Below, one piece after another: positions 41,715 to 46,434 of a DNA stretch of 64,000 nt (positions are counted from its first letter, which is position 1; each line of letters begins with the position of its first letter). The position numbers and the translations under genes are program-made. Source of the stretch: Parabacteroides distasonis ATCC 8503 (GTDB lineage Bacteria > Bacteroidota > Bacteroidia > Bacteroidales > Tannerellaceae); contig NC_009615.1 in assembly GCF_000012845.1 (NCBI RefSeq), positions 2,007,501-2,071,500 of the forward strand, given 5' to 3'. Under the pieces are notes generated by a model that saw only the letters and a program-made list of their open reading frames with translations, had not been told where the DNA came from and did no database searches.

Positions 41715-41796
41715 TTATCTTCTTCTATTTTGATCCGGCAAATGTACTTCTTTCCCATCAGATATCAGATTTTGGTAGAATGAAAAAAACGAATGA

Positions 41797-43050
41797 TCAA
41801 ACGTATCCCCCCTTATATACCGGCAGCACAACCGAGAAGCGGCTTCCTTTTCCTAGCTTAGAACTCAGTTCTATCCGTCCCCCCAAGTTTTGTACGATTC
41901 CTTGGCAGATAGACAACCCCAGACCGGCCCCTTGGCTGAATTCATCTTGCTTGAAAAAACGGCTGAACACCTTCTCTTGTTGCTCCTCCGATAGACCGAT
42001 CCCGGAATCCTTGACAAAAATCGCTACCTCATCCGTCCCCCTCAGATGCTTAAATCCCAACTTTATATATCCGCTATTCGTGAATTTACAAGCGTTTGTC
42101 AAGAAATTGGTTATAACTTGAGAAAGTCTCTTTTTATCCGTATAGATAAACAAATCCCCCTCCGCCTCTTTCGAGAATTGTAGGTGGGTGGGGACTAATA
42201 ACTGATGGGCGAGGTAAAGGTCGTCTACCAACTCCTTGACGGAGCAGCTCTCTTTCTCGAATTTCATTTGTCCCGATTGAAGTCTCGAAACCTCCAAAAT
42301 ATCATTGATGAGCACCAACAACAGATCGCAACTCTGATTGATCGTCTTGGCAAACAGCTGCTTGTCGGCCTCGTCTAAGTCCTTCTCCGAGGCCAGCAGG
42401 TTCGAGAAGCCTACGATAGAGTTCAGCGGCGTACGTATCTCATGGCTCATGTTCGCCAAGAACTTTTGCTCATATCCCCTCATGAGGATAAGCTCTTTTT
42501 CTCGTTTCTTCATGTCATTGATATTGATAAGTATACCGCTCACGTCTTTGCCTCCCTCCGCATTATCTACCGCAGGCATGGCGCTAAAGCGGAATTCCCA
42601 CCATTCATAATCAGATCCGGCGAAGCGGGCACGGCATTGGAATACCTCCTTGTCCGCCTTCCATAAGGATTGCCAAAGTAATTTGAAAGCAGTGAGATCA
42701 TCGGGATGTATCAGCCTCCACATCTCTTCCAACTCGATCCGTGATGACTGGTCACCGACAGGATACTCGAAAAAGAACTCCTCGTCCTTAAACTCCCAGA
42801 TGTATATGCCTCCACACTGTATGGCCAAATCCAAGAAGAAATTCTTTTGAGACAGACGGGAGAAGATCATCTTGACTTGCCTCTTCTCCCGCCCATACAA
42901 GCATAAGACACCGATTAAAAATACGATAGTAGCTACCTCAAAAACAGGCCTCAGCCTATAATACTCAAATAAGGGAGTATGCTTAGGTAGCAAGTACAAC
43001 CCCGTAAGCAAGGTTGCTAAAACTAAAAATATATAAAGTAGGTGTTTCAT
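41797..43050 (-). CDS. Orphan membrane sensor histidine kinase with PAS domain
   Basis: A 417-residue kinase. Two membrane helices (about 4-22 and 36-53) are separated by only a short loop, so there is no sizeable periplasmic sensor. A PAS domain follows (about 70-180, with WRLIHPDD and the PAC-like WWEFRFSAMPAVDN), then the HisKA box FLANMSHEIRTPLNSIVGFS, an N box (ITNFLTNACKFTNSG) and G boxes (KDSGIGLSEEQ, GAGLGLSICQG). No receiver domain is attached and no response regulator is adjacent, so its partner is elsewhere. Upstream is a 145-bp segment bounded by inverted repeats in which the only good -7 box points away from this gene, so expression is probably phase-variable and off here. Confidence 0.88.
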   Translation of the reverse strand: MKHLLYIFLVLATLLTGLYLLPKHTPLFEYYRLRPVFEVATIVFLIGVLCLYGREKRQVKMIFSRLSQKNFFLDLAIQCGGIYIWEFKDEEFFFEYPVGDQSSRIELEEMWRLIHPDDLTAFKLLWQSLWKADKEVFQCRARFAGSDYEWWEFRFSAMPAVDNAEGGKDVSGILININDMKKREKELILMRGYEQKFLANMSHEIRTPLNSIVGFSNLLASEKDLDEADKQLFAKTINQSCDLLLVLINDILEVSRLQSGQMKFEKESCSVKELVDDLYLAHQLLVPTHLQFSKEAEGDLFIYTDKKRLSQVITNFLTNACKFTNSGYIKLGFKHLRGTDEVAIFVKDSGIGLSEEQQEKVFSRFFKQDEFSQGAGLGLSICQGIVQNLGGRIELSSKLGKGSRFSVVLPVYKGGYV

Positions 43051-43071
43051 GGTTCTTTAAGTTTACGAGTA

Positions 43072-43216
43072 CCTGCGGGACTCTGGTGGTAAATGGTTTT
43101 ATTTCACTCCGCTCATTAACACTATTGTTTTTTTTCTTAAGACTATTATTGATTTTCACCAGCTATTTAATAAATATTATTATCTTTGATCTCATAATCA
43201 ACCAGAGTCCCGCAGG
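43072..43216. repeat. Inverted-repeat-bounded segment: candidate invertible promoter
   Basis: Perfect 16-bp inverted repeats CCTGCGGGACTCTGGT (43072-43087) and its complement (43201-43216) enclose 113 bp of AT-rich DNA. The layout and size match known Bacteroidales promoter switches. The left repeat is 22 bp from the histidine kinase ATG. Confidence 0.75.
43181..43188 (+). promoter_or_regulatory. -7 box inside the invertible segment
   Basis: TATCTTTG on the plus strand, 13 bp from the right repeat, pointing away from the histidine kinase. No TTG is found 19-21 bp upstream. After inversion it would fall at about 43100-43107 on the minus strand, giving the kinase a leader of about 45 nt. Confidence 0.6.
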
Positions 43217-43290
43217 GACAACGCCTACACCTCTTCCACGATTATTTATCTACCCGGCATCTTCCTTACTCGTATCCGTACGGCTACATT

Positions 43291-43356
43291 CTTGTATCTA
43301 CGTATCTGCATCCGTGTATCCGTACGGATACGAAGATGCAGATACGTAGATACAAG
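43291..43356. repeat. 66-bp near-perfect palindrome
   Basis: A 22-bp arm (from 43291) pairs exactly with its complement ending at 43356. Inside, GTATCCGTACGGATAC (43316-43331) is itself a perfect 16-bp palindrome, separated by 3-nt mismatched bulges on each side. It is extrudable as a cruciform. There is no T run, so it is not a standard terminator. Confidence 0.85.
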
Positions 43357-43416
43357 GACGCAGATACGTAAGTGCAAGAGCGTAACCGTACGGGTACCCG
43401 CTTGTATCCGGGCAAC

Positions 43417-43467
43417 AAAAAGCCGGTATCTGGGCGGGTACACGTGAGTACCTGCCCGGATACCGGC
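43417..43467 (-). terminator. Terminator of the HU-like gene
   Basis: Minus-strand stem of about 20 bp from GCCGGTATCCGGGC with two mismatches and a 6-nt loop, followed directly by TTTTTG. It lies 20 bp after the stop codon. Confidence 0.75.
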
Positions 43468-43486
43468 CCGCGGCTATCATCCTAGC

Positions 43487-43933
43487 CTATATCTCGTCCG
43501 GAGATTCCGAGTCGGAGCCGCCGGAGCCACCCGGTCGTCCTTCCGCCAGCTTGTCCACCCAAGCGAAAGTAGCCTTCTGAAGATCCGTCTTGAAAGCCTC
43601 GTCAGGCTGGAAGTTAAGGTTCACACTTTTGATATTCTTGGCGTTGACCTCCTCCTTGGTAGGTACCCCCAAACTGGAAAGCGTAACGCTGAAACTACCC
43701 CAGTTACCCAGTTTCACGCTCTCGCCTCCCAGCAGCCTGCGAAGCAAGATCTTACGAAGCTGGCGGATGGCCATCATCGCCTCGGAAGGGTTCAACGTAG
43801 TCTCGTCGGCGAGTTCCATCGCTACCTCGGTCTCGTCCGCTTGGGCGGTAGTTACTTGAGTTACATACCATTTCTTAGGCGCTTCCTTGTCCAAAGGGTT
43901 TATTCGTTGCACGGGTTTTACTAGTATTGCCAT
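43487..43933 (-). CDS. HU-related DNA-binding protein, Bacteroidetes histone-like family
   Basis: A 148-residue nucleoid-type protein. The HU/IHF-like fold covers about residues 1-125 (NPSEAMMAIRQLRKILLRRLLGGESVKLGNWGSFSVTL), where the GWG/GSF segment matches the beta-saddle of HU. It then has a short acidic Gly/Ser/Glu tail (GGSGGSDSESPDEI). It belongs to the HU-related families multiplied in Bacteroidetes genomes, which are longer than classic HU (90 residues). A consensus promoter lies upstream and an intrinsic terminator follows, so it is monocistronic. Whether it bends DNA at the neighbouring palindromes or inversion site is open. Confidence 0.85.
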   Translation of the reverse strand: MAILVKPVQRINPLDKEAPKKWYVTQVTTAQADETEVAMELADETTLNPSEAMMAIRQLRKILLRRLLGGESVKLGNWGSFSVTLSSLGVPTKEEVNAKNIKSVNLNFQPDEAFKTDLQKATFAWVDKLAEGRPGGSGGSDSESPDEI

Positions 43934-43986
43934 GATAAATAGATTTATAGGTCTCTCTTGGATGGAGGCCCTGATTATTAAATCTT

Positions 43987-44017
43987 CAAATATAACAATA
44001 GAGTTCCACTCTCACAA
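43987..44017 (-). promoter_or_regulatory. Promoter of the HU-like gene
   Basis: Minus strand TTG (44015-44017), 20-bp spacer, TATATTTG (43987-43994), about 55 bp before the ATG. Confidence 0.7.
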
Positions 44018-44095
44018 GTTAAAACCGGATTACTATTCGCACTTTCTTGAAAAAACTATTTGTAAGCAAAACCTAGTAAACTCATAATAATTTGT

Positions 44096-44103
44096 TACTT
44101 TTG
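44096..44103 (+). promoter_or_regulatory. -7 box of the malic enzyme promoter
   Basis: TACTTTTG, 42 bp before the ATG; no clear -33 box. Confidence 0.5.
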
Positions 44104-44145
44104 CGGTGGTTTTAAATAGGAACAACATAATTAATAAACATACCT

Positions 44146-46434
44146 ATGGCAAAGATTACAAAAGAGGAGGCCCTTCGGTACCATGCCGAGGGCAAACCGG
44201 GTAAGATCGAGGTTATCCCGACAAAGCCTCATAGCACGCAAACGGATTTATCCCTGGCTTATTCGCCGGGCGTAGCCGAGCCGTGTCTGGAAATCGAGAA
44301 GAATCCGCTGGACGCGTACGAATATACGGCGAAAGGTAATTTGGTAGCCGTAATCTCCAACGGTACCGCCGTACTCGGGCTGGGCGATATCGGTCCCTTG
44401 GCCGGTAAGCCGGTGATGGAAGGCAAGGGATTGCTATTCAAGATATTCGCGGGTATCGACGTATTCGATATCGAGGTGAACGAGAAAGATCCGGAGAAGT
44501 TTATCCAGACCGTGAAGGCGATCTCGCCCACGTTCGGAGGAATCAACTTGGAGGATATCAAGGCACCGGAGTGTTTCGAGATCGAGACTCGCCTGAAGAA
44601 CGAGCTGGATATCCCCGTCATGCACGACGACCAGCATGGTACGGCAATCATCTCCGGCGCCGGGCTGATCAACGCCTTGGAGATCGCCGGCAAGAAGATC
44701 GAGGACGTGAAGATCGTGGTGAACGGCGCCGGAGCCGCCTCTATCTCATGTACGAGACTGTACGTGATGCTGGGAGCGCGCAAGGAGAATATCGTCATGT
44801 GCGACAGCAAGGGCGTTATCTCTACCAGTCGCCCGGACTTGAACGCCGCCAAGCGGGAGTTCGCTACCGACCGCCCGATCAAGACCTTGCAAGAGGCCGT
44901 GGTGGGAGCCGACGTATTCTTGGGCCTCTCCGTGGCGAACGTATTGACCAAGGAGATGGTACGTAGCATGAACGCCGACCCGATCGTATTCGCCTTGGCG
45001 AACCCGAACCCGGAGATCTCCTACGCCGACGCTATGGCCTCGCGGGACGATATCATCTTCGCTACCGGACGTTCCGACTATCCGAACCAGATCAACAACG
45101 TGCTGGGATTCCCTTATATCTTCCGCGGCGCCTTGGACACGCACGCCAAGGCGATCAACGAGGAGATGAAGCTGGCCGCCGTCTACGCTATCGCCGACCT
45201 TGCCAAGGAACCGGTTCCCGACGTGGTGAACGCCGCCTATAAGCTGAAACGAACCACTTTCGGACGCGACTATATCCTTCCGAAAGCGCTCGATCCCCGT
45301 TTGCTGACCCGTGTATCTTGCGCCGTGGCGAAAGCCGCTATCGACTCGGGCGTGTCTCGCAAGACGATCACCGACTGGGAGGGCTACGCCAACCATTTGC
45401 GTGAGATGATGGGGTACGATAATAAACTCTTGCGCTCGTTCACCGATATGGCGAAAGCGAACCCGAAACGGGTGGTATTCGCCGAGGCGAACCACGTGAA
45501 TATGCTGAAAGCCGCCGCCGAGGCGAAAGCGGAAGGTATCTGTTTCCCGATCTTGCTGGGTAACGAGGAGCGTCTGGCCAAGATCGCCGCCGAGGAGAAT
45601 ATCAGTCTGGACGGTATCGAGATCGTCAACCTCCGCCACGACCGTGAGACGGAACGCCGCCACCGCTACGCCCGTATCCTTACCGACAAGAAGGCGCGCG
45701 AGGGCGTGACCTACTCGGAGGCTTGCGAGAAAATGGTAGACCGTAACGCCTTTGGTATGATGATGGTGGCTACCGGCGACGCTGACGCTTTCGTGACGGG
45801 TGTATACAGCCGCTACTCGGAGGTTACAAAGATGGCGGAACAGATCATCGGCATCCGCCCGAGCTACAAGCATTTCGGCGCCTTGAACATCTTGACTTGT
45901 AAGAAGGGTACGTTCTTTATGGCCGATACGCTGATCAACCGCCACCCGTCGGCCGAGGTATTGATCGATATCGCCCGCCTGACGCACGACGCCGTGAAGT
46001 TCTTCGCTCACGAGCCGGTTATGGCGATGTTGTCTTACTCGAACTTCGGTTCCGACAAGCAGGGCAGTCCGCTGAAAGTACACGAGGCGATCGACTTCTT
46101 GCATAAGACATACCCAGACATGGTAGTAGACGGAGAGATGCAAGTAAACTTCGCCCTCGACAAGAAGCTGCGCGACGATATGTATCCGTTCAACAAGCTG
46201 AAAGGGCAAGACGTGAATACCTTGATCTTCCCGAACCTAAGCTCCGCCAACAGCGCGTACAAGCTATTGGATACGCTGGGTATCACCGAGACGATCGGCC
46301 CGATCCAGATGGGATTGAACAAACCGATCCACTTCACCGACGTAGAAAGCTCTACCCGTGATATCGTGAACCTGACGACCGTAGCTGTCGTAGACGCTAT
46401 CGTTCAGGAGCAGATCGAGAAAGAAAACAGATAA
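44146..46434 (+). CDS. maeB: NADP-dependent malic enzyme, MaeB type with phosphotransacetylase-like domain
   Basis: A 762-residue fusion. Residues 1-420 form the malic enzyme (SLAYSPGVAEPC, the catalytic Lys/Asp region GLGDIGPLAGKPVMEGK, metal-binding VMHDDQHGTA, Rossmann VVNGAGAASI). Residues 430-762 resemble phosphate acetyltransferase (NPKRVVFAEANHVNMLKAA, ATGDADAFVTG). In MaeB proteins this second domain has no transacetylase activity and mediates oligomerisation and acetyl-CoA inhibition. It decarboxylates malate to pyruvate with NADPH formation. Codon use is strongly biased to C/G third positions unlike its neighbours, a sign of high expression, which also creates a 487-codon antisense open frame with no other support. 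A repeat hairpin follows. Confidence 0.95.
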   Translation: MAKITKEEALRYHAEGKPGKIEVIPTKPHSTQTDLSLAYSPGVAEPCLEIEKNPLDAYEYTAKGNLVAVISNGTAVLGLGDIGPLAGKPVMEGKGLLFKIFAGIDVFDIEVNEKDPEKFIQTVKAISPTFGGINLEDIKAPECFEIETRLKNELDIPVMHDDQHGTAIISGAGLINALEIAGKKIEDVKIVVNGAGAASISCTRLYVMLGARKENIVMCDSKGVISTSRPDLNAAKREFATDRPIKTLQEAVVGADVFLGLSVANVLTKEMVRSMNADPIVFALANPNPEISYADAMASRDDIIFATGRSDYPNQINNVLGFPYIFRGALDTHAKAINEEMKLAAVYAIADLAKEPVPDVVNAAYKLKRTTFGRDYILPKALDPRLLTRVSCAVAKAAIDSGVSRKTITDWEGYANHLREMMGYDNKLLRSFTDMAKANPKRVVFAEANHVNMLKAAAEAKAEGICFPILLGNEERLAKIAAEENISLDGIEIVNLRHDRETERRHRYARILTDKKAREGVTYSEACEKMVDRNAFGMMMVATGDADAFVTGVYSRYSEVTKMAEQIIGIRPSYKHFGALNILTCKKGTFFMADTLINRHPSAEVLIDIARLTHDAVKFFAHEPVMAMLSYSNFGSDKQGSPLKVHEAIDFLHKTYPDMVVDGEMQVNFALDKKLRDDMYPFNKLKGQDVNTLIFPNLSSANSAYKLLDTLGITETIGPIQMGLNKPIHFTDVESSTRDIVNLTTVAVVDAIVQEQIEKENR

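Follow-up and report, generated by a model that had tools for sequence, protein, structure and literature searches.

We think it reasonably probable, judging from the sequence, that the 145-bp element at 43072-43216 of the window (the whole stretch analysed, 64,000 nucleotides, 2007501-2071500 in a single-contig genome of 4,811,379 bases) is an invertible promoter (inverton), which would now lie OFF in front of a sensor histidine kinase gene. The DNA presents an inverted repeat, a promoter box and its position, dyads over both arms, a hairpin behind the neighbouring HU-HIG gene, and a layout that matches inverton-like loci. From these we infer inversion, a working promoter, an acting enzyme and an effect on the kinase. 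The 113-bp segment would be flipped through recombination between the two arms of 16-19 bp, catalysed by a site-specific recombinase from another locus. As deposited, the -7 box would fire to the right, antisense toward the 3' end of the HU-HIG gene, and because it points away from the kinase the latter would be OFF. The flip would turn the box toward the kinase gene, giving this gene a leader of ~45 nt and switching it ON.

Inverted repeat and enclosed segment

The arms are perfect 16-bp inverted repeats with the sequence CCTGCGGGACTCTGGT, located at 43072-43087 (+ strand) and 43201-43216 (- strand), and when extended to 43069-43087 and 43201-43219 they match at 18 of 19 positions. They enclose the AT-rich 113 bp at 43088-43200 (unstranded), the segment proposed to invert, which has 24.8% GC against 47.1% for the window; the repeat and its AT-rich spacer are hence just as the original prediction described them. 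No other perfect repeat of at least 14 bp (spacer 60-600) is present in the window, and only 3 of 100 dinucleotide-shuffled windows contain any perfect repeat that reaches 16 bp (spacer 20-1000), so that the 16-bp repeat exceeds chance. A short intergenic segment flanked by inverted repeats beyond chance is one of the features by which invertons are recognised.

Each arm is overlaid by an imperfect 7-3-7 dyad centred on TGC and without strand, at 43067-43083 on the left (6/7 pairs) and 43205-43221 on the right (5/7 pairs), which are candidate core sites for a recombinase. The score of the two dyads together was reached in 121 of 4000 shuffles, and those of six control arms of our own choosing (L046, L052, L059, L060, L062 and L145) in 0, 0, 2, 37, 14 and 71 of 1000 shuffles respectively. 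As RNA, the 145-nt element is predicted to fold at -42.2 kcal/mol with the arms paired in a long stem. A transposon relic was also considered and set aside, no target-site duplication being seen by eye.

Promoter box and the kinase

The Bacteroidetes-type -7 box TATCTTTG lies at 43181-43188 on the + strand, pointed away from the kinase and 12 bp inward of the right arm. Neither strand of 42951-43500 has another TAnnTTTG, which bears out the claim that the sole good -7 box points away from the kinase; likewise, in-silico inversion turns it toward the kinase as proposed, its first base then standing 57 bases before the ATG. An internal -7 box directed outward through one arm at such a distance is a further inverton feature, while a -33 TTG, also expected of one, is absent at the usual spacing both as deposited and after in-silico inversion. 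In the present orientation no TAnnTTTG with up to one mismatch (TA kept) faces the kinase in the kinase-to-HU-HIG interval. A scan of 42900-44200 for E. coli-type promoters returned 5 sites versus 1.6 in shuffles; two of these, on the + strand of the segment, immediately precede or touch the -7 box, and within 43051-43486 there is no site directed at the kinase.

The proposed target of the switch is a sensor histidine kinase of 417 aa (HisKA and HATPase_c) at 41797-43050 on the - strand. Read along that strand, the order is the HU-HIG DNA-binding protein gene (148 aa, 43487-43933, -), a palindrome-rich stretch, the inverted repeat, the kinase, sbcD and sbcC. The HU-HIG gene is followed on its 3' side by a terminator-like hairpin and then TTTTTGTT (43414-43467, -; 76-nt fold of -39.1 kcal/mol), although a simple terminator scan did not list it. 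This hairpin would block read-through into the kinase, which would therefore probably depend on a promoter of its own. The description of the kinase as an orphan holds locally, no response regulator adjoining it; that the switch could toggle a whole regulon is speculation.

Between the hairpin and the inverted repeat lies a GC-rich palindromic repeat array (43270-43397, unstranded), and overlapping GC-rich palindromes are seen across 43270-43470, 3' of the HU-HIG gene. In relatives the same place holds palindromes with a quite different unit sequence. Compared with 200 shuffles, the palindromes of the window (11 versus a maximum of 10), of L106 6212-6274 and of L107 5659-5744 exceed all, while those of L108 7903-7991 remain within the shuffle range (13 versus a maximum of 17). 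A second array whose units are as in the window (GTAGCCGTACGGATAC, one mismatch) is found at L181:1400-1560, near genome position 1609199 and 3' of a PAS/HATPase_c kinase frame; the array is thus a dispersed repeat type, and the idea that such arrays are specific to HU-type genes was dropped for two reasons: these like units stand behind a kinase frame, and among the other HU-HIG matches of the genome, whose gene ends were set by a rough longest-frame rule, only 3 of 22 beat all of their own 60 palindrome shuffles.

Comparison loci in the same genome

In order to place the element among its possible counterparts, 34 recombinase loci of the genome were compared (30 of the 36 tyrosine and 4 of the 4 serine recombinase matches). 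Perfect repeats of 14 bp or longer, with a spacer of 40-1500, are present at 16 of the 34, and 8 of those 16 have arms of the GCTACTYRG type. The promoter comparison was made on 14 repeat pairs, inverton candidates by arm type and adjoining recombinase, leaving out L049, L050, L055 and the second pairs of L041, L045, L046, L058 and L063. In ten of the 14 (9 loci, some of them near-identical copies) an outward TAnnTTTG stands at 9-16 bp from an arm; in two (L059, L060) the motif lies further in and in two (L056, L058) there is none. Eight of these ten promoters have a TTG 18 or 22 bases upstream of the box, while L062 and L063, near-identical copies, share the very same TATCTTTG and lack it. 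The element, with its box at 12 bp and no TTG, is within the range of the comparison loci. The missing -33 TTG is thus real but weakens the promoter call less than feared, given that 2 of 10 comparison promoters (near-identical copies) also do without it, and the likeness to capsule promoters originally noted is seen in the outward box 12 bp from an arm, as in repeat loci near tyrosine recombinases of the same genome. One of the loci, L058:98-252, lies ~1.2 kb from a tyrosine recombinase and consists of perfect 21-bp inverted repeats around a 113-bp spacer; its arms read outward as TACCTTTG, so that -7 boxes may sit within arms.

The combined signature, a perfect repeat of 16 bp or longer, a spacer of 60-600 and an outward TAnnTTTG at most 25 bp from an arm, was then sought in the window and in 20 stretches of 20 kb each, 464 kb altogether. 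Six repeat loci were found, 3 of them with an outward box: the element itself, a capsule-type locus in L150 (the L041 place; GCTACTTGGCGAGTAGC type, adjoining a tyrosine recombinase) and, in L145, a repeat before a DUF6383 gene. When the whole 464 kb were shuffled 15 times the signature never occurred, and repeats alone averaged 0.07 per 464 kb. Since 3 of the 6 repeat loci have no box, repeats of such size arise for other reasons too.

Recombinase and arm copies

The genome has 36 PF00589 and 4 PF00239 matches, and none of either falls within the 64-kb window, in agreement with the statement that no recombinase is encoded nearby. Within one mismatch, the arm core has no second copy in its own genome and is absent from 37 other genomes of the genus, and the arm-gap-arm pattern occurs in 1 of 123 family genomes, its own. 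At 2 mismatches the 15-bp arm core has one match in the genome (L003), where the inverted partner extends over just 10 bp; as this partner does not cover the full matched stretch, no arm copy elsewhere supports action in trans. The number of matches to the 15-mer in the window was discarded as evidence by itself, 26 of 100 shuffles having at least 2 matches at 3 mismatches.

By comparison, the CTAAACGATCG-type site is found at 6 places in the genome within one mismatch, with a perfect partner of at least 12 bp at one of the six and imperfect partners at the other five. The arm of the element belongs neither to this family nor to the capsule inverton family of P. distasonis (GCTACTYRGNRAGTAGC). 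The OFF invertible kinase promoter originally proposed is upheld in its layout, but not in its trans action by a shared invertase: unlike the recurring CTAAACGATCG-type site, its arm is found nowhere else in the genome. Neither an adjoining recombinase nor an arm common to other sites, one of which usually accompanies an inverton, was found at the element. As this is usual and not strictly required, the view that the element works like an inverton stands at reduced odds.

Other strains and relatives

P. distasonis TSDC17.2-1.1 (NZ_OY725747.1, deposited as 'plasmid 2') is 98.3% identical to the window over 3.4 kb of the sbcCD stretch, and has the kinase DNA in two pieces of 96.4% and 88.4% identity with ~94 bp missing between them, the gene being annotated from an internal start. 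Similarity stops at window position 43055, 5 bases before the kinase ATG, and no inverted repeat was seen upstream of that kinase. Nor does the upstream DNA of this strain indicate an ancestral orientation, neither orientation beating shuffles (263 and 256 of 500). The strain is also the single record of the locus in the plasmid collection, and no relative was found in viral contigs using two exact patterns and a kinase protein scan. The comparison of orientation between strains that had been suggested produced no flipped copy in viral contigs, genome contigs, genus genomes or the plasmid collection, and the one further strain record lacks the element. The palindrome array of TSDC17.2-1.1 (L106:6213-6228) contains CTAAACGAGCGTTTAG, which is one base off the inverton-type core CTAAACGATCGTTTAG of the genome that holds the window.

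A close relative (G004, 95% in sbcCD) has a HU-type gene and no kinase between sbcD and the malic enzyme gene, while another genome (G023) has there a different, 671-aa kinase in the opposite orientation. The locus is therefore young and variable, its kinase slot differing among TSDC17.2-1.1, G004 and G023. This slot, 41715-43944 from sbcD to the malic enzyme gene, is a hotspot where the kinase may be present, absent, shortened or replaced by a different one facing the opposite way. The HU-type gene varies as well: it encodes 148 aa without DUF4469 in the window and 259 aa (G004) or 261 aa (G023) with DUF4469, and in TSDC17.2-1.1 it is annotated as two overlapping frames. Across the genus, the kinase finds a match at E <= 1e-40 in 15 of 38 genomes, the best outside its own genome, among the matches listed, being 56% over part of the kinase; a protein scan of genome contigs gave 18 distant kinases of 24-35% identity.

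Alternative explanations

A unique arm sequence and no adjoining recombinase are also what a former inverton would exhibit if it had become locked, its cognate recombinase having been lost from the strain and the kinase being permanently OFF or served by a weak, unrecognised promoter. The shortened TSDC17.2-1.1 kinase with its internal start suggests moreover that the gene may be dispensable, and shorter kinase clusters exist in the protein search too (among them one of 240 aa with 191 members and two of 355 aa, with 63 and 277). We nevertheless consider a locked inverton unlikely: decay would erode the match between arms which still agree at all 16 positions, and kinase clusters close to full length, at 97, 93 and 93% identity, have 1264, 234 and 909 members, sizes by which the intact gene is common. 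The abundance of palindromes across 43270-43470 raises the possibility of a static repeat, in which two copies of a GC-rich intergenic repeat, produced by the process behind the palindrome array, would enclose AT-rich DNA by accident and undergo no recombination. Indeed, the outer edge of the left arm has GAGTACCTGC in common with the array, at a score reached in 13 of 1000 shuffles. The right arm, on the contrary, is not similar to the array, its score being reached in 1000 of 1000 shuffles, so that the arms were rejected as array units, the match being limited to the left outer edge; furthermore, neither an outward box near an arm nor dyads over the arms would be expected of such a repeat, and we give this account little credence.

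The predicted fold of the 145-nt RNA is compatible with a structural element of fixed orientation, the arm stem acting in the kinase leader or the arms as a pair of protein-binding sites. It is, on the other hand, missing from TSDC17.2-1.1, which has the kinase DNA, and a 113-nt AT-rich loop is unusual in a leader hairpin, making a structural role very improbable.

A second kinase behind an inverted repeat

Of the 23 kinase matches elsewhere in the genome (24 in total), 19 had their surroundings scanned, in 18 stretches (132 kb), and one more strong case emerged. At genome 1197443-1197613 (L175:2444-2614) a 27-bp perfect inverted repeat with a 117-bp spacer is followed 60 bp downstream by the start of a 364-aa kinase (HisKA and HATPase_c). 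No outward TAnnTTTG lies within 25 bp of an arm there, and TAATTTTG, inside the repeat and 57 bp from an arm, faces the kinase. L164, in the same scan, has just a 14-bp repeat with a spacer of 404 and no box. With the second kinase repeat it becomes easier to believe that inversion controls kinases in this genome, which is no proof for the element itself.

The arms at 1197443-1197613 resemble the CTAAACGATCG-type site, and a 2-mismatch copy of them at 4267192 is 179 bp from the CTAAACGATCG-type site at 4267371. Both of these sites precede a frame without Pfam match, which begins, as far as the eye can judge, much like the DUF6383 protein of L145. On sequence grounds, one recombinase might flip both surface genes and the sensor at 1197443-1197613.

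If the element flips, a gut commensal would be switching a sensor and not a surface molecule, and one stochastic event could change the downstream response; its unique arms would be a sign of a recombinase specificity not yet assigned. A wider idea, to which we attach considerable doubt, is that sensing is randomised by the bacterium itself, with at least two histidine kinases under separate invertons, one having the private site of the element and the other, at 1197443-1197613, arms like the CTAAACGATCG-type sites of surface-layer-like genes. Clone-mates would then hear different signals, in one case possibly differing in surface coat as well. The present flip would also trade kinase mRNA for RNA antisense to the HU-HIG 3' end.

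Comparison with known systems

The capsule loci of P. distasonis, whose invertible promoters have the consensus GCTACTYRGNRAGTAGC according to excerpts of PMC12118408, resemble the element in that their inverted repeats contain dyads, and of the 8 loci with such arms in the genome 7 have an outward TAnnTTTG 13-16 bp from the arm. They differ by an adjoining recombinase, segments of 265-345 bp and a common arm sequence, compared with 113 bp, a unique arm and no neighbouring recombinase at the element, and the seven with an outward box have a -33 TTG, which the element lacks. The repeat before the DUF6383 gene in L145 (CTAGTCTAAACGATCG arms) is closer in several respects, with 16-bp arms, a short segment (172 bp), an outward TACCTTTG 17 bp from the arm and no recombinase match in its 20-kb stretch. 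Unlike the element, its core occurs at 6 places in the genome (a perfect partner of at least 12 bp being found at L145 only) and a TTG is present 19 bases upstream of the box. DUF6383 genes are presumably S-layer-like, and the surface-layer glycoproteins of P. distasonis undergo phase variation.

Among published surveys, the PhaseFinder survey of PMC10939037 included P. distasonis, as stated in excerpts of that paper, while Parabacteroides is absent from the main text of PMC11892184 on invertons. Repeats alone prove little, since the PhaseFinder locate step returned 1,997 inverted repeats in B. thetaiotaomicron (excerpts of PMC10994844). Judged by title, none of the open-licence papers listed for invertible promoters together with histidine kinases concerns a Bacteroidales example. 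In Bacteroides fragilis, excerpts of PMC5903667 and PMC12632263 describe capsule promoters inverted in trans by one global invertase, Mpi, which serves many loci, whereas the arm of the element is unique in its own genome.

A functional parallel is CmrRST (Cdi6) of Clostridioides difficile, the cmr switch of PMC6837544 and the on-off two-component system of PMC5903667. There, as proposed for the element, invertible DNA precedes a sensor-kinase operon with on-off expression (PMC5903667). The organism belongs to a different phylum, the operon comprises a kinase and two response regulators, the paper leaves open whether the segment contains a promoter, and inversion and phenotype were measured there. 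A two-component system switched by DNA inversion is, with CmrRST, already established in C. difficile.
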